A stretch of 64,000 bases of DNA, taken from Streptomyces sp. NBC_00224 (GTDB lineage Bacteria > Actinomycetota > Actinomycetes > Streptomycetales > Streptomycetaceae). Shown here piece by piece: positions 1,802 to 58,454 of this stretch. The notes under the pieces were generated by a model that saw only the letters and a list, made by a program, of their open reading frames with translations, was not told the DNA's origin and did no database searches. A program made the position numbers and the translations under genes. Location: contig NZ_CP108107.1 in NCBI RefSeq assembly GCF_041435195.1, positions 62,001 through 126,000 on the forward strand, in the 5' to 3' direction. Every line of letters begins with the position of its first letter. The stretch's first letter is position 1.

Positions 1802-2104
1802 ATGGGAGGACTGGGGCTTGAGGAGTCGCTGCGGTTGACCGTGGCGGCGCTGATGCAGGCGACGGGCGAGTCGCAGCGGGACCTGGCCGTGGTGCTGGGT
1901 CTGACGCAGACTCAGGTGTCGCGGCGTCAGGCGGGCACCACGGCGTGGAGCCTGCGCGACTGTGATGTGCTGGCCGCGCACTATGGGATCGGTTCTCTGG
2001 AGCTGTTGGCAGGGCCGACGCGGGCGTGTGAGGCGCGGGCGCTGCGGACGGGCGAGAACGTGAACGTGAACGGGAACGTGAAGGACGGGGTGGCGGGACG
2101 GTGA
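1802..2104 (+). CDS. small Cro/C1-type HTH protein, first gene of Tap/Tpg-like operon
   Basis: This 100-aa protein carries a helix-turn-helix around residues 24-50 ('SQRDLAVVLGLTQTQVSRR') and an unstructured tail rich in N, V and G. The ATG at 1802 is chosen; a GTG three codons upstream in frame is possible. It overlaps the next gene by four bases (GTGA), so the two are translationally coupled. It is probably the autoregulator or DNA-binding accessory of the operon. That role is inferred from fold and position only. Confidence 0.7.
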   Translation: MGGLGLEESLRLTVAALMQATGESQRDLAVVLGLTQTQVSRRQAGTTAWSLRDCDVLAAHYGIGSLELLAGPTRACEARALRTGENVNVNGNVKDGVAGR

Positions 2105-3702
2105 GCGACTTCGACGCGATCGACTCGCTGCTCGCCTCGGTCGGGCCCGAGGCCGTGCTCCCGGCGCCCGAGCAGCGCCTGCGGCTGCGCGAGGCCGCCC
2201 GCCTCTCGAAGGCGCAGGTCGCCCGCGCGCTCGGTGTCAGCCCGTCGACGGTCACGGGGTGGGAGACGGGCCGTGACCCGTCGGGCGAGGTGCGTACGCG
2301 GTACGCGTATCTGCTGGAGGGGGTGCGGGAGCGGCTGGAGGAGTACGAACCGGAGTCTGAACCGGGGTCTGAACCGGGGTCTGAACCTGTAGTCGAACCT
2401 GAGCCTGAACCGGTGGATGCGGATGAGGCCGGGGACGATGTCGAGTTGCTCGGTGCGCCCGAGCCGTGCGTGCTGTGTGGGCGGCCGGCCCGGCAGCGGG
2501 TGGCGGGGTTCGCGCAGCATCTGGATCCGGCGGAGTGCGAGGAGGCGGGGCAGACGGCTTCGGCTCCGGCGGCTTCGGTTCCGGAGGCTGTGGTCTCGGA
2601 GGCCCCGGCCCCGGCGGTCCCGGCCCGTACGGAGAAGGCGGCCGCCCCAGCCCGTACGGAATCGTCGAGGCCTGCCACGTCCGCGACCGCTCCGGCCGGG
2701 TCCCCCAAACCCCCCACCCGCCGGGCCTTCCAGCCTCCCCGTCCCGAGCCCTCCGACCTCGTCACCCAGGCTGTGCGCGGGGCCCTCGCCGAGCATCACG
2801 GGGACATCGAGGCGGCCACCGCCGCGCTGGTCAAGCGGGCGATCCCGGACGCGATGCGGCTGCTGGACGAGTCGCGCAAGGGCGCGCGTTACGACATCAT
2901 CGCCCACCCCTGGATCCCGGACGTGCTGCGCAAGCAGACGGCCAAGGGTGCCGACCAGATCTGGGAGGCGCGCCCCAAATGGACGCGGCGCGAGCTGCCG
3001 CCGGGTGAGCACGAGGTGACGGCGCTCGACATCAACGGCGCGTACCTGTCGGCCCTGAAGACGCATCTGCCGCTGGGGCAGTTGGAGCACTCCACCGGGT
3101 TCGCGCACGACCGGCGCCGGGCGGGCGTACACCTGATCACGCCGCCGGCGTGGGAGCACGAGGACGTACTGCCGAACCCGATCGGCAACCGCGACGAGCC
3201 CGGCCCGCTGTGGGTGACCGAGCCGACCCTGCGCCTGCTGCAACGGCTGTCGGGCCCGAAGTACGGTTTGTGCGAACCCCCGGAGATCCACGAGTCGTTC
3301 ACGTCCGGGGCGACGGAGAACCTCCTGGAGAAGTTCCGTATCGCCCTCAAGGACGCCCGTGACGCGGCGATCACGGACGGGGACGAGGTGACGCTGGAGT
3401 ACGTGAAGGCGATGTACTCCAAGTTCGTCTCCACGATGGGGGAGTCGAACTACAACCGTGAGCTGTACCGTCCGGACTGGATGCACATCATCCGCTCCCA
3501 GGCGTTCGCCAACCTCTGGATGAAGGCGTACAAGGCGCACGACGAGGGTTTGGCGGTGGTACGGGCGATGGGCACCGACGAACTCCATGTGATCGGCGAC
3601 TGGCGCGGGGTGTTCGCGGAGGGCCGGGGCGTGACGGAGGTCAAGGTCAAGGACACGTATACCGCCGGCGCTGTTGCTGTCGCTGAGGGTGTGGAGGACT
3701 GA
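2101..3702 (+). CDS. Tap-like protein: HTH, Zn finger and phi29-like DNA polymerase B palm motifs
   Basis: This 533-aa protein has four visible parts. An Xre-type HTH lies at about residues 24-60 ('SKAQVARALGVSPSTVTGWE'). An acidic repeat is built on EPESEPGS units (82-104). A C-x2-C...H...C putative zinc finger (about 116-140) is followed by an Ala/Pro linker. The C-terminal domain (about 215-533) contains 'LDINGAYLSALKTHLPLG' (D310), 'VKAMYSKFVST' and 'GTDELHVIG' (D493). These match in order and spacing motifs A (DVNSLYP...LLPYG), B (NSLYGKFAS) and C (DTDSIHL) of phi29-type protein-primed family B polymerases. Both key metal-binding Asp positions are kept, the first Asp of DTD is Gly, and the motif B Lys is displaced. 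No exonuclease domain is seen. N-terminal HTH plus position just upstream of a Tpg-like gene is the layout of Streptomyces tap-tpg telomere operons. It could instead be a plasmid-type regulator; the telomere role is inferred. Confidence 0.7.
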   Translation: MSDFDAIDSLLASVGPEAVLPAPEQRLRLREAARLSKAQVARALGVSPSTVTGWETGRDPSGEVRTRYAYLLEGVRERLEEYEPESEPGSEPGSEPVVEPEPEPVDADEAGDDVELLGAPEPCVLCGRPARQRVAGFAQHLDPAECEEAGQTASAPAASVPEAVVSEAPAPAVPARTEKAAAPARTESSRPATSATAPAGSPKPPTRRAFQPPRPEPSDLVTQAVRGALAEHHGDIEAATAALVKRAIPDAMRLLDESRKGARYDIIAHPWIPDVLRKQTAKGADQIWEARPKWTRRELPPGEHEVTALDINGAYLSALKTHLPLGQLEHSTGFAHDRRRAGVHLITPPAWEHEDVLPNPIGNRDEPGPLWVTEPTLRLLQRLSGPKYGLCEPPEIHESFTSGATENLLEKFRIALKDARDAAITDGDEVTLEYVKAMYSKFVSTMGESNYNRELYRPDWMHIIRSQAFANLWMKAYKAHDEGLAVVRAMGTDELHVIGDWRGVFAEGRGVTEVKVKDTYTAGAVAVAEGVED

Positions 3703-3703
3703 A

Positions 3704-4273
3704 GTGCCGGAGCAGAGCCATGAGTTCGGCAAGTACGGGGCGCGCGGCATCAAGGGCAGCGAGGCCGTGTCCCGGGTCCTGGACGGGCTGGCGGGCGGCA
3801 TCGCGACGCCGGTCACGGTCAAGCGAGGGTTGATGGCGCGGTTGCACTATCTGACGCGTACGCCGCATGCGTGGGCGGCGGCGCGGGAGGCGGGGCTCAC
3901 GGTCACCGACCGTACGGTCAAGGCGTGGCTGGCGGGCGTCCGTAACCCGACGGCGGCGAACCTGGAGCGGATCGACGCGGCGTACTGGACGGTCCGCCGC
4001 CACAACGTGGCCCGCCATCTGCTGCGCCGCCTCAACTCGGCGGGGGGCACGCGGGTGGAGCTGCACCCCCTCAACCAGTCCCAGGTGCCGCGTCCGCGGC
4101 AGCGGGTGGTGGAGTACCGGGCCCTGAACGTACGGCGGTGGGACCGCATCGTTGAGGCGTGGGCGGAGGCGGATGCGGAGGCGTTGGACGGGGCGTGGAC
4201 GGATGTCATCGAGGACTTGGGGTCGCAGTGGGGGCAGTACGAGTACGTGACGAATGTGGGGTTTGCGGCGTGA
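3704..4273 (+). CDS. Tpg-like (telomere terminal protein-like) HTH protein
   Basis: This 189-aa protein begins at a GTG preceded by GGAGGACTGAA, one base after the stop of the Tap-like gene. A central HTH lies at about residues 55-85 ('LTVTDRTVKAWLAGVRNPTA'). It is followed by a basic helix and a strand-rich tail ('GGTRVELHPLNQ', 'QRVVEYRALNVRRWDRIVEA'). Size, HTH position and the GG-x-x-V-E segment after the HTH resemble Streptomyces Tpg terminal proteins (about 185 aa), and tap-tpg is a conserved operon. The similarity is by eye and partial. The priming Thr/Ser/Tyr cannot be assigned. It could alternatively be an ordinary Xre-like regulator. Confidence 0.6.
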   Translation: MPEQSHEFGKYGARGIKGSEAVSRVLDGLAGGIATPVTVKRGLMARLHYLTRTPHAWAAAREAGLTVTDRTVKAWLAGVRNPTAANLERIDAAYWTVRRHNVARHLLRRLNSAGGTRVELHPLNQSQVPRPRQRVVEYRALNVRRWDRIVEAWAEADAEALDGAWTDVIEDLGSQWGQYEYVTNVGFAA

Positions 4274-4373: not shown

Positions 4374-4868
4374 TCATGGCGTCCGCTCCGGCGTCGGCGT
4401 CTGGCGCAGTCTGTTCTGCCCGAGGGCGACGAGGTCGACGACGGCTTGGGCCGCGCATACGCTGCCGACGGCGGTTGGTGGCAGGGTCCAGTGCGGGCCG
4501 GGGCGTGCGGTGAGGTCGAGGCGGGGTACTCCCAGCCAGGTTCCGGGCCGTAGGCACTCGACGTCCGGCACCTGCCAGTGGGTGTGGGTGCCCGGTGGGA
4601 CGAGTGCGTAGTACCAGACGCCGATGCCGTACGCGTCGTGGATGACGGCCCCGTTCTTCAGGGCCTCGGTGAGGTATGCGGCGACGGCGTCCGGGTCTTG
4701 GCTGCCTGCGGCCGCGTGGACGACGGGGGCGGGCAGGCGGATGGCGTCGAACTGCTCGCCGGTCGGCACGAGGGCGATACCCACGTCGAACTCCCGCCGG
4801 GCCTGGGCGGGTACGTGGTGTGTGGAGGCGAGCCAGTTGGTGATGGCTGTGGCGGCTTGGGTCATCAC
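4374..4868 (-). CDS. hypothetical protein, similar to a fragment of primase-polymerase N-domains
   Basis: This 164-aa protein of no certain family contains 'WYYALVPPGTHTHW' and 'CLRPGTWLGVPRLDLT', which resemble part of the N-terminal domain of bifunctional primase/polymerase proteins. It is too short, and lacks the catalytic acidic motifs, to be one. The ATG overlaps the stop of the upstream gene (4865-5197) by four bases, so the pair is coupled. Its stop lies about 100 bases from the convergent Tpg-like gene. The function is unknown. Confidence 0.6.
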   Translation of the reverse strand: MMTQAATAITNWLASTHHVPAQARREFDVGIALVPTGEQFDAIRLPAPVVHAAAGSQDPDAVAAYLTEALKNGAVIHDAYGIGVWYYALVPPGTHTHWQVPDVECLRPGTWLGVPRLDLTARPGPHWTLPPTAVGSVCAAQAVVDLVALGQNRLRQTPTPERTP

Positions 4869-43638: not shown

Positions 43639-44241
43639 TCACGGTGCGGCGGCCGGGCCGACGGGCTCCGGCGCACTGGCAACAGGCGCCGGGCCGCCCG
43701 TCAGCAGATGCTGAGCCAGCCACGGCCGCAGCCGCTCGCGCTCGGCGTCCGAAGCCATCGTGAAGCCGGCGATGTGGCCCGCGCAGTTCACGCTCCCGCA
43801 CCGGCAGTCGAACGGCTCGGCCATGAAGAACTCGGTGGTGCTGTAGTGAAACGTGATCTCGTCGCCCACACCGATGTCGGTGGCCGCGAGCACCTGCCGC
43901 CCCGCGATCCTGGAATTCGGCGAGCAACTGTGATTCATGAACCGCCAGAAGTACGCGTCCATGGTTTCCTCGTTCCCCACACCCTCGGGCAGATCGAGGT
44001 GCACGTCCTTGCCGACCTGTACGGAATACCGGCTCGGTACGTTCGTCGGCTCGCCGTGCACCTCGAACAGCGGCGCCCCCGCCCGCGCGGGTTCGCAGGC
44101 GATCAGCGCGTATTCACCGGCCGTTCGCAGTACCCCCACCTGTATTTCCCCATGGCTCACAAGAGGAGCTGTCTCGGTGAGCGGCCCCATGAGAACCAGT
44201 GTGCTCTGTTCGTCGGTCAACGCTGAAGCGAGCTCGGTCAT
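43639..44241 (-). CDS. SET-domain protein (putative lysine methyltransferase)
   Basis: This 200-aa protein has the SET hallmarks 'RFMNHSCSPNSRIAG' and 'GDEITFHYSTTEF', followed by a post-SET-like zinc motif with spaced Cys ('FDCRCGSVNCAGHI'). SET enzymes transfer methyl from S-adenosylmethionine to lysines. Bacterial targets are mostly unknown. GAGG lies eight bases ahead of the ATG. It is upstream of and close to the SulP gene, and divergent from a small unknown gene. Confidence 0.85.
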   Translation of the reverse strand: MTELASALTDEQSTLVLMGPLTETAPLVSHGEIQVGVLRTAGEYALIACEPARAGAPLFEVHGEPTNVPSRYSVQVGKDVHLDLPEGVGNEETMDAYFWRFMNHSCSPNSRIAGRQVLAATDIGVGDEITFHYSTTEFFMAEPFDCRCGSVNCAGHIAGFTMASDAERERLRPWLAQHLLTGGPAPVASAPEPVGPAAAP

Positions 44242-44445
44242 GCAGTCAACCTCATTAAAGGGGAAACGTGCCGGTCTGCGAGTATGTCTAACGCCCGCGC
44301 ACGACGTTTTCAAGCAATCGTTCGGCCGGTGACAACGCCTCGGGTGCGTTGCTCGCATGCGTGCAAAAGCGTTCAAGTTCCGCCCTGGTGGGACGGAGGA
44401 TCGGGCAAGGGGTGGGCGGGTCCGGCGCCGAGCGAGGAGTACGTC

Positions 44446-44829
44446 ATGGCATGGGGTGCGAACCAGGACATCCGCGTCACCAACCATCTCGACCGGGACA
44501 TCTATGTGATGCCGGCCTTCAGCACCTTTGCCGCCCCCAGCCCCTTCCTGAGGATTCCGGCCGGCGGGAGCGAGGACGTGAAGGAGGAGGTGCTGGCGTT
44601 TCTCGGCGGCTACTTCAAACCGGCCGGCGGATGGTTCACCATGACCGGTTTCATCAAGGTGAGTCTGACCGTCGTGACATGTGACGGAAAGCGGACCGCG
44701 GAAATCGAATCGTCCCCGGGCCAATCCTGGACAGTCACAGACGCGGGGATCACTCGCGCGATACCCGGGACCCCGGACAACCCCGGCGCCCCGCTCGAAC
44801 CCGTCGCGTGGAACCTGTCCGTCAGGTGA
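44446..44829 (+). CDS. small beta-rich hypothetical protein
   Basis: This 127-aa protein has a strong GAGGAG site. It is predicted mostly beta ('QDIRVTNHLDRDIYVMPAF', 'VSLTVVTCDGKRTAEIESS') with no signal peptide. The pattern of N-terminal strands plus 'GWFTMTGFIKV' loosely recalls lectin-like or aegerolysin-like beta sandwiches, but I cannot assign a family. Its stop overlaps the LPMO gene stop by eight bases on the opposite strand. Confidence 0.6.
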   Translation: MAWGANQDIRVTNHLDRDIYVMPAFSTFAAPSPFLRIPAGGSEDVKEEVLAFLGGYFKPAGGWFTMTGFIKVSLTVVTCDGKRTAEIESSPGQSWTVTDAGITRAIPGTPDNPGAPLEPVAWNLSVR

Positions 44830-45469
44830 AGTCCACGTCCGAGCAGGCGTAGAACGCCTCCCCGCTGGAAGGGAGTTCGCGCTGCCAGATGGTGAAGACG
44901 AGATGCCTGCCCTTCTTGGCGGGCAGTTGGGTGGCCCAGCTCGTCCGGGTGTCGAGCGCGGGTTGTTGGGCGACGAGGAAGGGGATGGCCTCCAGGTCCT
45001 TCCAGGCCAGCGGCTTGGTGGGGTTGTAGCCGTCCTTGGTGACGTAGTACTCGAAGTGGCTGGGGGCGTGGCGGGCCGTCTCCTTGAACACCAAGGTCTG
45101 CTCGGTGTTCGACGGCAGCTTCTGGGCGGGCCAGTCGTCACGCGCGAGATCGAGCCCGGAGAATTTGGGCTGATTGCCGCTGCACAGCTTCCCGTCGGGC
45201 AGGAAGGACCGGTGGCGGCCGGCCACGTCGATCTGCGCCACACTCATCCAGTCGCTGAAAGGGGACTCCCCACTGCGCTGATAGGCGGCGTTGCACGCCT
45301 TGTTCGGCGTACGGCCGCCGCCCCCCTTCACGACTCCGAGGTCCTTGCAGACCAGGGCCCGGCTGGGGGGAGACGACGACGTACCGTGTGCGGAGGCCGT
45401 GCCCCCGGTGGTGAGGGCCAGGGGAGCCAGCAGCAGCGCGCAGGCCGTGGCCGCGAGGTGTTTCCTCAT
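44822..45469 (-). CDS. AA10 lytic polysaccharide monooxygenase
   Basis: This 215-aa protein has a signal peptide ending TASA, so His28 becomes the mature N-terminus ('HGTSSSPPSR'), the first ligand of the copper histidine brace. His134 in 'TARHAPSHFEYY' is the likely second. Two or more Cys pairs and the C-terminal 'VFTIWQRELPSSGEAFYACS' are typical of chitin/cellulose-active AA10 enzymes. It is a single domain without a CBM. It lies downstream of a CBM2-like protein gene on the same strand. Confidence 0.92.
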   Translation of the reverse strand: MRKHLAATACALLLAPLALTTGGTASAHGTSSSPPSRALVCKDLGVVKGGGGRTPNKACNAAYQRSGESPFSDWMSVAQIDVAGRHRSFLPDGKLCSGNQPKFSGLDLARDDWPAQKLPSNTEQTLVFKETARHAPSHFEYYVTKDGYNPTKPLAWKDLEAIPFLVAQQPALDTRTSWATQLPAKKGRHLVFTIWQRELPSSGEAFYACSDVDFT

Positions 45470-53659: not shown

Positions 53660-54037
53660 GTGAGCGAACGCCTTGTCCGTACGGTCGAAGTGCCCCTGGC
53701 CGACGGCAGTGACGAAACGATTCGCGTCCAGGTCCGCGAGGTGGACGAGAGCCTCGTACGGGTGGGCCGGGGCGACGGCTCCGTCACACGGGCCCAGCGG
53801 ACGTTCGGGCAGATGCTGGACACCGTACGGCCCGTCGCGGAGAGTTTCGTCGGACGGTTCAGGGATCTGGCGAACTCGCCCGACGAGATAACCCTGGAAT
53901 TCGGGGTGTCGCTGTCGGCCGAGGCGGACGTCGTCATCGCCAGCACCGCCACCGAGGCCAATTTCTCCGTGAGTCTGACTTGGAACAGGAGTGACACACG
54001 GGGCGGCGCGACCGACGATACTGCGCAAGGGAGTTGA
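53660..54037 (+). CDS. Trypco1/CU044_2847-type small protein
   Basis: This 125-aa protein starts at GTG with GGAGGATGCC upstream. The pattern of N-terminal strands ('RVQVREVDESLVRVGRG'), a central helix ('FGQMLDTVRPVAESFVGRFR') and 'PDEITLEFGVSLSAEADVVI' is that of the trypsin-co-occurring domain 1 family. That family sits beside trypsin-like/STAND effectors in bacterial conflict systems. It lies just upstream of exactly such a gene, which supports the call. Its molecular role is unknown. Confidence 0.75.
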   Translation: MSERLVRTVEVPLADGSDETIRVQVREVDESLVRVGRGDGSVTRAQRTFGQMLDTVRPVAESFVGRFRDLANSPDEITLEFGVSLSAEADVVIASTATEANFSVSLTWNRSDTRGGATDDTAQGS

Positions 54038-54083
54038 CCCGGCCGTCCCGCCATCCCGGGGGCGCGAGGATGCGGAGGACGTG

Positions 54084-57000
54084 GTGACGGGGGCTCAGTC
54101 ACGGAGTGCGGACGAGGTGCTGGCCTCGACGGTCGTACGGATCTCGGGGCGCGGCGGCGCGGTCTGCGGCGCGGGCGCCCTCGTCGCACCCGATCTGGTG
54201 GTGACCTGCGCCCATGTGGTCTCGGACGCGCTGGGGCGGCCCCGTCAGGAGGACGTGGCGGCCGGAGCCGAGCTCACCGTCGACTTCCCGCTGGCCGGGA
54301 ACGGGTCGGGGAACGGGGCCGGGACCGGGAACGGGGCCGGGGCGGCAGGTCCAAACGACGGCACCCCGGCCCCCGACCGGCCCCGAACCGCCACCCCTAC
54401 CCCTACCCCCACCCCCACCGTCACCGCCGTCGTCGAGCACTGGATACCGATCCGCCCCGACCGCACCGGAGACATAGCCGTCCTCCGCCTGCCCGAGCCC
54501 GTCCCCGGCGCCTCGCCCCTCCCGATGGCCGACCCCGACACCGTCTGGGAGCACGGGGCTCGCGCCGTCGGTTTCACCGGCGGGGAGCCGGGCGAGGTGT
54601 GGTTCCGGGGGAAGTTCAGCGGGGCTACCAGCGAGGGCTGGATCCAGCTCTCCCGGGCCGACGGGCAGAGCGCCCACGTCAGACGGGGGTTCAGCGGCAG
54701 CCCCGTCTGGGACAACGAACTCGGCGCCGCCGTCGGCCTCGTGGTGGCCGCCCAGCCCGAACAGGACGCCCAGCAGGCCTTCGTGCTCAGCACCCGCACC
54801 CTGCTCAGGGAGGTGCCCGCGCTCGCTGCCGTCATCAGCCCAGCCCCGCCGTTCCGGGGGCTCGCCACGTTCCAGGAAAGCGACGCGGACGTCTACTTCG
54901 GCCGGGACGACGACATCGAAGAAGTGGTCCGGGCCCTGCGGGGCGAGCACCAGACTGTCACGCTGTACGGGCCCTCCGGCTCGGGCAAGTCGTCGCTGGC
55001 CCTGGCCGGAGTGGCCCCCCGGATGCGGCAGGCCGGATACGACGTGCTGGTGGTGAACGCCGGGCGCATCGCCTCCCCCCGGGCCGCGATCGCCACCGAG
55101 CTGTACGAGCAGATACGTTCCGGGCGGTACGGGCTGCCCGCCCGGGCCTCCGGCGCCGACCAGATCGAGACCTGGCTCGCCTCGCTGGGCCTCGCCGACA
55201 CCCTCCACCGGGCTACGGGCAGCCCGTCCGGCAGGCTCCTGATCGTCCTCGACCAGGCCGAGGCCCTCCTCGACCGCACCGAGGACGAGCTCGCCCAAGC
55301 CGCCGACCTGCTCTTTCCCGCACACCCCGCACCGGGCTCGCGCGTCCTGCTCACCCTGCGCTCCGACTTCATGGACGCGACGCTCAAACACCCGCGCCTG
55401 GGCCCCGCGCTGCGCGGCGGCGCCACGCTCCCGCTGACGCCGATGTCCCGCGACCAGCTCCGCGACGTCGTCGTCCGGCCGCTGGAACGCGTCCCGGCCG
55501 TCGCGTACGACCCGGGCCTGGAGCAGCGCATCCTGGACGACGCGGGCGGCGAGCCGGGGATCCTGCCGCTGCTCGGCTTCGTACTGGAACAGCTGTGGGA
55601 GCGGCGGGCCACCGGACGGCTGCGCTCGGCGGCGTACGAGGAGATGGGCGGCGTACGCGGCGCGCTTGAGCTCCACTCCGAGCGGGCCTGGCGCGACATC
55701 GTGGACCCGGGGACGGAGCCCGAGGCGCTGCGGCTGCTCACCGGCCTGGTCCGGGTGCACCCCGGCAGCGAGACCCCGCTGCGCCGCAGACTCACCCGGC
55801 AGGAGGCGGGCGAGGAGCGGTGGGCGCTGGCGCGGGCGTTCGCCGAGCGGCGCCTGCTCGTGCTGCACGGCGGCGAGGAGGAGCCGGAGACCGCCGAACT
55901 CGCCCACGAGGCGCTGGTCACGGCCTGGCCCGCGCTGCGGCAGCAGGTCAAGGCCGACGGCGAGTTCCTGGCGGGCCGGGCGGAACTGGTCCACGACCGC
56001 CGGCGCTGGGAACGGGGTGGCCGGACCGCCGACCTGCTGCCCGGCGCGCGCCAGCTCGCGGCAACCGAGCACTGGCTGGGCGGCGGGCGGGAGCGCGAAC
56101 TGAGCGAGCAGGAACGGGAGTTCCTCGCCCTCGCCCGCCGCCGCCACCGTGCCCGTCGCACCCGGCTGCGCGCAGCCTGGACCGCCGCCGCCCTGGTGCT
56201 CGCGCTGATCGCCGGGCTCGGCACCTTCCTGGTCTACCAGTCGCGGGTCAGCGACCAGCGCCGGGCGGAGGCCCGCTCGCGCTCCCTGGCCAGCATGTCG
56301 CGCGACCTCACCCAGACCGACCCGGGACAGGCCGCCCTGGCCGCGATCGCCGCGTACGAAATCGCCCCCACACAGGAGGCCCGCAGCGCGCTGCTGCGCC
56401 GGTACGACCAGTTCAGGAACGCGGACTGGGTGCTGACGGGCACTCAGGGGAAGATCGACGCGGTCGCGATGAGCGCGGACGGCACGGTGACGCTGGTGAC
56501 GACCAAGGCGGGCCGCGCGACGCTGTTCGTACGGGCCCGGGGCAGGGTGCTGCGCACACCGCTGCCGGGCAAGGTCGGCGCGCCGATGGTGAGCGGGGAC
56601 GGCCGACGGGTCGCCTACCTGGGGGAGAAGGACGGCACGCTGTCGTGGCACGAGGTGAATCCGGTGGCTCGGGAAGCGGAGCACCTGGTGGGGCCCGCGC
56701 GACCGATCCCCGGCGCCTTCAAGACCCCCGAGCGGCTGGGGTTCGTGGGCTCGGTCGGCTTCGCGGCCCTGTCCCCGAGCGGTGCCCGGGCGGTCGCGAG
56801 GGACGCCGACGGGCGGCTGTGGCTGTGGGACTTGCGTACGAAAGAGCGACGGCAACTGCCACCGTCCGGGTCCAAGATCCAGGCGGTCTGGTACGGCCCC
56901 GACGAGAACACCCTGGTGACCCAGCGGCCCGGCCCCTCGCTCCAGGAGTCGACGATGGTGGCGGTCGACATCGCCACGGGAAAGACACGCCAGTTGGTGG

Positions 57001-58454
57001 AACGGGCCAGTACGGACGGGGGCGTCGTACAGCTCGGCCTGTCCGGCGACGGCGGCGTCCTCGTCGTCTGCCGGGCGGGCGCCACCGTGAGCACCCCCAC
57101 CTACCAGGCCATCCGGGTCGCGGACGGCCGCCAGATCCACAGCCACACCGCAGACTCGCCCTGCCACGGCCTGGCCATCGACCGTACGGGGACGCAGTAC
57201 GCGGTGCACCAGGCCGGCGGCTGGCACCTCATCGACACCCGCCCGGGCAGGGAGATGAAGCCGCTGCTCGGCCCTCGGGTCTCGTCCCTCACCAACATGC
57301 GACTCCTCGGCCAGGAGCCCGCCTTCACCATGGTCGCCTGGGGCGAGGACGACAAGGCCGCCGCCGTCACCGGGTGGTCGCTGGGCATGGACACCACCGA
57401 TATCTCCAGCACGCCGGTGCTGCTCGGCAGCGGCGACAGGATGCTTGCCCACGTGGGCAAGAAAGGCGAGCAGTTGGTGCTGCTGGACACGACCGAGGAG
57501 TCGTTCGACGGCCCCGGCCCGCCGCGCCGCCTGGCCGAGGTGACACGCGACCCGGCGACGTCCCCACAGCCGCCGGGCGATGTGAAGGTCAACCGGGCAC
57601 AGACACTGCTGGCCGACCTCGTCGGCCGCACCACGGTGATGATCCGGGACACCTCCACCCTGCGCGAGGTGGCGCGGATCAGCACGGCCGAGCCGCCCCT
57701 CGACAAGGACGGCAAGCCCGAGCAGGTGGAGTACGTGTTCACCACCACCGACGAACTCGTCACCGTCTCCGGCAGCCTGGTCGAGCACTGGAACGCCCGC
57801 ACCGGAAAGCGTTTGTCGCAACCGTTCGAGGTGGGCGACACGGGGGTGAGCAAGGACAAGCACCCCAAGTTCAGGCTGTTCCGCCACCCCGAGCCGGGCC
57901 ACGTACAAATCATCATCCCCGGAGACCGGGAGGTACACCTCGTCGACCTGCGAACGGGCCGCGAGGACAAGAGACTTCGCCTGGGACCGGACGTGATCGA
58001 CGCGGGCTTCGACAGCAGCGGACGGTACGCGGCGGTGCGCACGGGCGGCGACATGGTGGAACTGTGGTCGGTACGGACCGGCGGAGACCCGCAGAAGGTG
58101 TACGGGCCGATCGGCCCGCTGAAGCGGTTCGACGGCTTCAAGGCCGGATTCGTGGGCGACACCTCCGAATTCTTCCTGGCCAACGACACCTCCGTACGCT
58201 TCCTCCAGCCGTCCGACCCCGGCCGGGCCCAGTCGTACGACTTCGACGAATCCCAGACCTACGTCGCGGGCTCCCCGGACGCCAAGGCGCTGCTGCGGGT
58301 CGGCCAGGACTCGCGGGTGGACCTGCTCCGCCTCGACCCCGACCGCTGGAAGACCCGCGTGTGCAAGGTCCTGGGCCGCGACCTCGACCCGGAGGAGCGC
58401 CGGAGCCTGTCGGGCGGCCTGCCGAAGCGGATCTGCCCGGCGCCCACCGGGTGA
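54084..58454 (+). CDS. trypsin-like protease / STAND NTPase / beta-propeller conflict protein
   Basis: This protein of about 1456 aa has a trypsin-like domain with His44 ('CAHVV'), Asp130 ('GDIAVLRL') and Ser204 ('GFSGSPVW'). A STAND/AAA-type NTPase follows, with P-loop 'GPSGSGKSS' near 297-304 and Walker B 'LLIVLDQAEALLD'. Then come a helical arm, one membrane helix (about 697-721) and a long WD40/beta-propeller-like C-terminus (about 800-1456). Start chosen at GTG 54084, behind GGAGG; the frame is open to 53991. Such proteins are proposed to sense an invader, oligomerise through the NTPase and release protease activity. The membrane helix puts the propeller opposite the NTPase, which is unusual for a cytosolic sensor. 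Confidence 0.88.
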   Translation: MTGAQSRSADEVLASTVVRISGRGGAVCGAGALVAPDLVVTCAHVVSDALGRPRQEDVAAGAELTVDFPLAGNGSGNGAGTGNGAGAAGPNDGTPAPDRPRTATPTPTPTPTVTAVVEHWIPIRPDRTGDIAVLRLPEPVPGASPLPMADPDTVWEHGARAVGFTGGEPGEVWFRGKFSGATSEGWIQLSRADGQSAHVRRGFSGSPVWDNELGAAVGLVVAAQPEQDAQQAFVLSTRTLLREVPALAAVISPAPPFRGLATFQESDADVYFGRDDDIEEVVRALRGEHQTVTLYGPSGSGKSSLALAGVAPRMRQAGYDVLVVNAGRIASPRAAIATELYEQIRSGRYGLPARASGADQIETWLASLGLADTLHRATGSPSGRLLIVLDQAEALLDRTEDELAQAADLLFPAHPAPGSRVLLTLRSDFMDATLKHPRLGPALRGGATLPLTPMSRDQLRDVVVRPLERVPAVAYDPGLEQRILDDAGGEPGILPLLGFVLEQLWERRATGRLRSAAYEEMGGVRGALELHSERAWRDIVDPGTEPEALRLLTGLVRVHPGSETPLRRRLTRQEAGEERWALARAFAERRLLVLHGGEEEPETAELAHEALVTAWPALRQQVKADGEFLAGRAELVHDRRRWERGGRTADLLPGARQLAATEHWLGGGRERELSEQEREFLALARRRHRARRTRLRAAWTAAALVLALIAGLGTFLVYQSRVSDQRRAEARSRSLASMSRDLTQTDPGQAALAAIAAYEIAPTQEARSALLRRYDQFRNADWVLTGTQGKIDAVAMSADGTVTLVTTKAGRATLFVRARGRVLRTPLPGKVGAPMVSGDGRRVAYLGEKDGTLSWHEVNPVAREAEHLVGPARPIPGAFKTPERLGFVGSVGFAALSPSGARAVARDADGRLWLWDLRTKERRQLPPSGSKIQAVWYGPDENTLVTQRPGPSLQESTMVAVDIATGKTRQLVERASTDGGVVQLGLSGDGGVLVVCRAGATVSTPTYQAIRVADGRQIHSHTADSPCHGLAIDRTGTQYAVHQAGGWHLIDTRPGREMKPLLGPRVSSLTNMRLLGQEPAFTMVAWGEDDKAAAVTGWSLGMDTTDISSTPVLLGSGDRMLAHVGKKGEQLVLLDTTEESFDGPGPPRRLAEVTRDPATSPQPPGDVKVNRAQTLLADLVGRTTVMIRDTSTLREVARISTAEPPLDKDGKPEQVEYVFTTTDELVTVSGSLVEHWNARTGKRLSQPFEVGDTGVSKDKHPKFRLFRHPEPGHVQIIIPGDREVHLVDLRTGREDKRLRLGPDVIDAGFDSSGRYAAVRTGGDMVELWSVRTGGDPQKVYGPIGPLKRFDGFKAGFVGDTSEFFLANDTSVRFLQPSDPGRAQSYDFDESQTYVAGSPDAKALLRVGQDSRVDLLRLDPDRWKTRVCKVLGRDLDPEERRSLSGGLPKRICPAPTG

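Follow-up and report, generated by a model that had tools for sequence, protein, structure and literature searches.

Organization of the locus

The 64,000-nucleotide stretch of DNA analyzed here (the window) corresponds to positions 62,001-126,000 of C2 (NZ_CP108107.1), a linear plasmid of 220,250 bp in Streptomyces sp. NBC_00224, and harbors, about 64 kb from the left end of C2, an operon coding for a 533-aa protein related to the telomere-associated protein Tap, followed by a 189-aa protein resembling terminal proteins (TPs). The sequence comparisons presented below support homology between the C-terminal module of the 533-aa protein and family B DNA polymerases (PolB), and we consider it likely that the products of the operon form a machine for telomere end-patching, composed of a TP and a reduced partner similar to protein-primed PolB.

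The open reading frames (ORFs) of both proteins, each with a GTG start, agree with those given in a preliminary description of this DNA (Table 1). The same gene starts are annotated in NZ_CP108254.1 (Streptomyces sp. NBC_00060, 220,216 bp), a close relative of C2 whose record is marked linear and in which the Tap-like protein is 99.8% identical over 521 residues. A small XRE gene opens the operon, overlapping the start of the Tap-like gene by 4 nt, and has an upstream relative in 47 of 80 related loci (those kept by a genome scan, out of 129 relatives).

Table 1. Features of the operon, in window coordinates
Feature	Position	Strand	Basis
Small XRE/helix-turn-helix (HTH) protein, operon gene 1	1802..2104	+	ATG start; ORF; weak HTH matches; NZ_CP108254.1 annotation
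Telomere-associated protein of 533 aa, Tap-like and probably of the GtpB class	2101..3702	+	GTG start; ORF, relatives, alignment
N-terminal HTH, ~residues 25-65, common to Tap	2173..2295	+	PF01381/PF13560; NF047542 residues 4-170
Zinc-finger-like Cys123/Cys126/His140/Cys146 (putative zinc binding)	2467..2538	+	invariant in 26/26 aligned rows
PolB-like module, ~residues 205-521	2713..3663	+	profile comparison, relatives, predicted structure
Motif A Asp D310 (phi29 D249 equivalent)	3028..3030	+	Asp in 58/58 modules with a letter there
Y315, steric-gate position (phi29 Y254 equivalent)	3043..3045	+	Tyr 31, Phe 26, Trp 1 of 58
Motif B Lys K436 (phi29 K383 equivalent)	3406..3408	+	Lys in 57/58 modules
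Motif C Asp D493 (phi29 D458 equivalent)	3577..3579	+	Asp in 58/58 modules
TP-like protein, 189 aa, weak HTH	3704..4273	+	GTG start, one base past Tap-like stop

A C-terminal module resembling family B DNA polymerases

The motifs DINGAY (D310), KAMYSKFVST (Y439) and GTDELH (D493), which the preliminary description had likened to motifs A, B and C of phi29 DNA polymerase, were confirmed, and they show no or next to no variation in a 26-row alignment in which the window protein is one of the rows. The analysis was extended to 59 module-bearing ORFs from genome and plasmid loci, some of which are near-duplicates (L099/L147, L161/L196). In this set the two putative metal-binding Asp residues are kept, in register with their phi29 counterparts, and the first Asp of motif C (phi29 D456) is lost, both as had been proposed; it is replaced by G491 in the window protein and, across modules, by Gly (23), Leu (20), Asn (5) and others. 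The motif B Lys, on the other hand, had been described as displaced, and alignment to phi29 places the earlier register a few residues off: K436 is the conserved equivalent. G508 (56/58) and K515 (55/58) are also kept. Throughout, canonical phi29 numbering is used, which exceeds that of the aligned phi29 protein by three, since the latter starts three residues later.

The longest gap in the module, of 16 residues (no other exceeds 7), lies opposite phi29 residues ~402-419, where TPR2 is located. As regards the TPR1 insertion and the thumb, motifs A and B are 126 residues apart, versus 134 in phi29, and only 40 residues follow motif C. The TPR2 insertion has been reported to confer processivity and strand displacement (PMC6921018). 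Pfam identified no 3'-5' exonuclease domain in residues 1-204, where all matches were to HTH families, and DNA_pol_B_2 gave no match above cut-off in the Tap-like protein. An HTH and a zinc finger had been said to take the place of the exonuclease; the HTH is borne out by PF01381 (2.7e-8), while the zinc finger, although its four ligand positions (C123, C126, H140 and C146) are kept in all 26 rows, is best described as putative.

Profile comparison (hhalign) of the modules with 19 phi29-type and PRD1-type PolBs from phages yielded 91.8% over 212 columns, with an E-value (7.5e-7) that refers to a pairwise comparison and not to a database search. The score of 60.1 compares with a maximum of 17.9 among 60 column-permuted PolB controls, and reversing one partner reduced the result to 0.2%, whereas reversing both restored it to 88.8%, as expected. 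Because the permuted and reversed controls score far lower, the likeness to PolB is above chance. The 12 most divergent modules alone reached 81.5%. In a predicted structure of the module, of low confidence, the best PDB match found with Foldseek was phi29 DNA polymerase, in agreement with the profile comparison and with the palm that the preliminary description had suggested; the polymerases among the listed structure matches are, as far as we recognize them, all of the B family.

Several results weigh against this kinship. Global alignment of modules and PolB gave 37.9%, and partial sets scored low, be they the window-like (10%) or Tap-like (0.3%) modules against PolB, or the PRD1/Badulia (2.4%) and Idefix (0.7%) groups against the modules; hence, the match depends on pooling modules, and the tie between Tap and PolB runs via the module. 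Among further comparisons, a narrow phi29-only profile (28 sequences) was non-significant (0.4%), yet it paired motifs A and B. A profile search of PDB sequences returned no polymerase, and relatives were found neither in phages at E<=0.1 nor, with the patterns used, in viral contigs.

The module shares with phi29 DNA polymerase the three motifs in register, the Asp/Asp/Lys set, the Tyr/Phe gate and a TP partner, and differs in the lost motif C Asp, the gap at TPR2, the little room for a thumb and the lack of a detectable exonuclease; gene order differs too, with the polymerase-like gene first here and the TP gene first in phi29. Since defining features are missing among those tested, the module is not classed as a canonical protein-primed PolB. 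We regard it instead as a divergent relative, probably with a similar mode of action.

Relationship to Tap and distribution of the module

Of 7995 candidates scored, at least 1905 are related to the 533-aa protein at E<=1e-3; those named among the best 120 listed are nearly all from Streptomyces, and database names mostly designate HTH regulators. By sequence it is not an archetypal Tap: the NCBIfam model telomere_Tap (NF047542), which has its cut-off at 600 bits, gives it a score of 68.7, with the best stretch in residues 4-170. With respect to Tap/Tpg, the operon has the same gene order, an N-terminal HTH, a homologous C-terminal module and a small downstream TP gene, but its Tap-like protein is ~190 aa shorter and carries the zinc-finger-like segment, and its TP is only weakly like Tpg. 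Matches to the PADLOC defense models were limited to the HTH, and a defense function was discarded.

Taking the SirexAA-E protein (L100; 1137.7 bits with NF047542) as archetypal reference, hhalign related the window module to Tap at 94.7%, and at 98.8% when a linear-plasmid protein of Brachybacterium kimchii (L096) was included as a bridge. The latter is 30.8% identical to Tap over 289 residues (4e-26) and, over 350 residues, 26.9% identical to the window module (3e-15), with E-values computed within small sets of nine. Both motif Asp residues are invariant in a nine-row alignment (A2), and D429, K575 and D645, the SirexAA-E Tap counterparts of D310, K436 and D493, are invariant in 28 Tap rows. 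The palm proposed for the window protein thus appears to extend to Tap, which widens the earlier reading of a protein-primed-polymerase-like partner beyond this operon. The AlphaFold model of Tap is poor (pLDDT 53.5, pTM 0.32) and is not counted as evidence, and neither is its Foldseek result, in which HTH-type rows dominate and phi29 DNA polymerase ranks 6 and 16 of 50 (prob 0.09). A putative exonuclease-like domain in the middle region of Tap was rejected (hhalign 0.5%). The B. kimchii protein, encoded by plasmid pCBA3104-01, spans 1733 aa with the module at its end; its middle matches a 1073-aa protein of Streptomyces sp. NBC_01506 (23-24% over 530-580 aa), and the common region has no Pfam match.

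In PLSDB, 145 plasmid records match the Tap-like protein, and many of the 60 listed match solely residues ~215-521, indicating that the C-terminal part is a module with exchangeable fronts. These comprise full DnaB (L095), DnaB_C (L097) and DUF927 (L190, L195), besides the HTH and zinc-finger-like segment of the window protein, and one module protein carries little else (L093; annotated as 326 aa, in an open frame of 424 aa). A class-wide draw revealed the module in 46 of 394 genomes, 37 of Streptomyces and 9 of other genera, with at least three misses within Streptomyces.

The window pair probably belongs to the GtpB/GtpA class, to which we liken it by description. This third pair, a two-gene Tap-like/TP unit borne on Streptomyces chromosomes (SGR_RS00475/SGR_RS00470 in Streptomyces griseus), is reported in all strains of the population studied and together with GGA-loop telomeres, to one group of which the SirexAA-E ends have been likened (PMC7205883). 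SirexAA-E carries the window Tap-like family 18 kb from an end. Also alike by description is Tac/Tpc of plasmid SCP1, for which TP-primed synthesis by a telomere-associated protein is reported (PMC4513846).

The terminal-protein-like partner

Relatives of the 189-aa protein, with 63-96% identity, were found by tblastn anywhere in the locus in 65 of the 80 related loci, and 51 of the 59 modules have an ORF of 110-260 aa starting within 30 nt of their stop. In the 15 loci without such a relative (L050, L051, L052, L056, L058, L061-L063, L065, L066, L070, L071, L074, L078 and L081), the Tap-like gene is closely followed by different ORFs or by no ORF at all; all six of them inspected for motif C retain that stretch intact. 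The preliminary description had likened the protein to Streptomyces TPs. The similarity to Tpg is thin, being confined to the HTH region (hhalign 42.9%, reversed control 0.2%), with a bridge in Brachybacterium: the protein encoded downstream of L096 has E-values, in the sets of nine, of 9e-7 with Tpg and 1e-3 with the window TP. The HTH_3 match of the 189-aa protein (0.016) falls below cut-off; Tpg has ~185 aa and an HTH. T71, T116 and S174 are invariant in the 65 rows of the family, the window protein among them. The priming residue of Tpg is reported to be T114 (PMC3572947), of which the hhalign alignment to Tpg revealed no clear equivalent. T116 and S174 were considered as candidate priming residues; T116 is not kept in the TP of Streptomyces albidoflavus.

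Location relative to replicon ends

Within a spread sample of 60 of the 145 plasmid records, which are mutually non-independent, the match lies less than 10 kb from the record end in 27 cases (10.1 expected), all transcribed towards that end, and the eight records inspected are all marked linear. The placement anticipated for such a system is therefore seen among the relatives, and the window operon itself lies on a linear replicon. Both ends of C2 share a 56-bp inverted repeat (87.5% identity), and structure prediction gives each a series of hairpins whose loops have three bases. The chromosome and C2 carry related terminal sequences at their two ends, as does the 49.6-kb C3 at its right end, which is identical to the right telomere of C2 over 198 bases. 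The left end of C3 is unlike the other replicon ends of the genome, with repeats resembling a CRISPR array in place of a telomere (L144:1-200), and C3 is probably an incomplete linear plasmid.

The module occurs once in the genome, in which we found no full Tap (the sole further match, of 21.9 bits, covers HTH positions) and, searching with PF03175 and PF00136 at E<=0.01, no polymerase; the PF03175 search was positive in only one of 14 control genomes. Given a single module, no full Tap and related terminal sequences, the plasmid operon is the sole candidate found for patching these ends, and it probably acts on those of the chromosome as well as on those of the plasmids. A plasmid-borne tap-tpg has been reported to serve the chromosome ends of Streptomyces rochei (PMC6662830). 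In S. albidoflavus, a module/TP pair lies 0.7-2.3 kb from a plasmid end and module proteins are encoded on 7.0-7.1 Mb contigs; these are candidates for the end-patching proteins of Sg2247-type telomeres, which have been called elusive (PMC8743542).

Other C2 genes were noted. The small protein encoded next to the TP gene (window 4374-4868, minus strand) and one encoded 2 kb from the left telomere (L009:1947-2546, plus strand) look alike by eye and have no Pfam match. A 1487-aa protein (window 53991-58454, plus strand) combines a trypsin-like peptidase, an nSTAND1 NTPase and a beta-propeller, a layout known from defense proteins, and a predicted protein at 43639-45243 (minus strand) has a weak SET-domain match (6.6e-6).

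Proposed mechanism and alternative explanations

We propose that the HTH and zinc finger direct the Tap-like protein to hairpins of the 3' overhang at the replicon end. The module, as a reduced palm and fingers derived from or sister to protein-primed PolBs, would there couple an initial nucleotide to one of the hydroxyl groups of the 189-aa TP before adding a few more, by analogy with Tap/Tpg; D310 and D493 would hold the metals, K436 the dNTP, and Y315 would select deoxynucleotides. Synthesis would stop early, because there is no recognizable exonuclease, no TPR2 and apparently no thumb, and the end would be handed over to another polymerase. Tap and Tpg are reported to produce a TP-linked 13-mer in vitro, with Mn2+ stimulating the first step, and Tac and Tpc to behave likewise, deoxynucleotidylation proceeding without added polymerase (PMC4513846); the proposed early stop fits that product. 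The TP may complete the polymerase: the same source notes a thumb-like region in Tpg and a possible need for a heterodimer. A TP beside a polymerase-like partner in an end-patching role, as first suggested for this locus, is thus supported.

The alternative that survives best, albeit improbable, is that the palm derives from PolB but has lost catalysis, recruiting the TP to telomere hairpins while DinB1 or DinB2 makes the first bonds. The missing motif C Asp and the lack of a visible thumb speak for it, as does the genetic requirement of linear replicons for DinB1 or DinB2, as cited in PMC4513846, and these points count equally against an active module. However, D310, K436 and D493 are near-invariant across very divergent modules, unlike in the usual dead enzymes, and Tap as well as Tac is reported to deoxynucleotidylate its TP without added polymerase (PMC4513846). 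Still less probable is that the module has a different, convergent fold of primase or polymerase and resembles PolB by coincidence, as might be suggested by the title of a cited 2017 paper, which names Tap a telomere-associated primase, and by the failure of canonical profiles to detect PolB, which again tells against our proposal; four catalytic positions nonetheless match in order, spacing and register, and hhalign, Foldseek and VIA all favor PolB. The view that the two proteins are merely HTH regulators whose motifs look polymerase-like by chance, in line with the naming of most relatives and with the 15 loci devoid of a TP relative, is very hard to reconcile with end-proximal placement, DnaB fusions, Tap homology and the decoy controls.

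With a reduced protein-primed-PolB-like enzyme as the preferred interpretation, a broader proposal, to which we give even odds, is that Tap/Tpg, the GtpB-like class and the S. albidoflavus and Kitasatospora plasmid-end pairs share one minimal, hitherto overlooked PolB-derived split enzyme, grafted onto HTH, DnaB or DUF927 fronts and present in nearly every Streptomyces. Its palm and fingers would reside in the telomere-associated protein, with thumb or processivity supplied by the bound TP, and synthesis would thereby be restricted to a short primer linked to protein. B-family enzymes are absent from Streptomyces according to one cited paper and, according to a 2026 survey, typically missing from Actinobacteria (PMC12926913); among the titles and abstract openings listed in searches of the open-licence PMC literature, none describes a polymerase palm in Tap. 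The palm identified here gives candidate catalytic residues for end-patching, and the missing TPR2 and thumb offer a possible reason for the stop of synthesis at ~13 nt. If the broader proposal is true, telomere classes would evolve by front-end swapping on a common polymerase module; if the module acts as proposed, it would explain how Streptomyces finishes copying the ends of its linear chromosomes.
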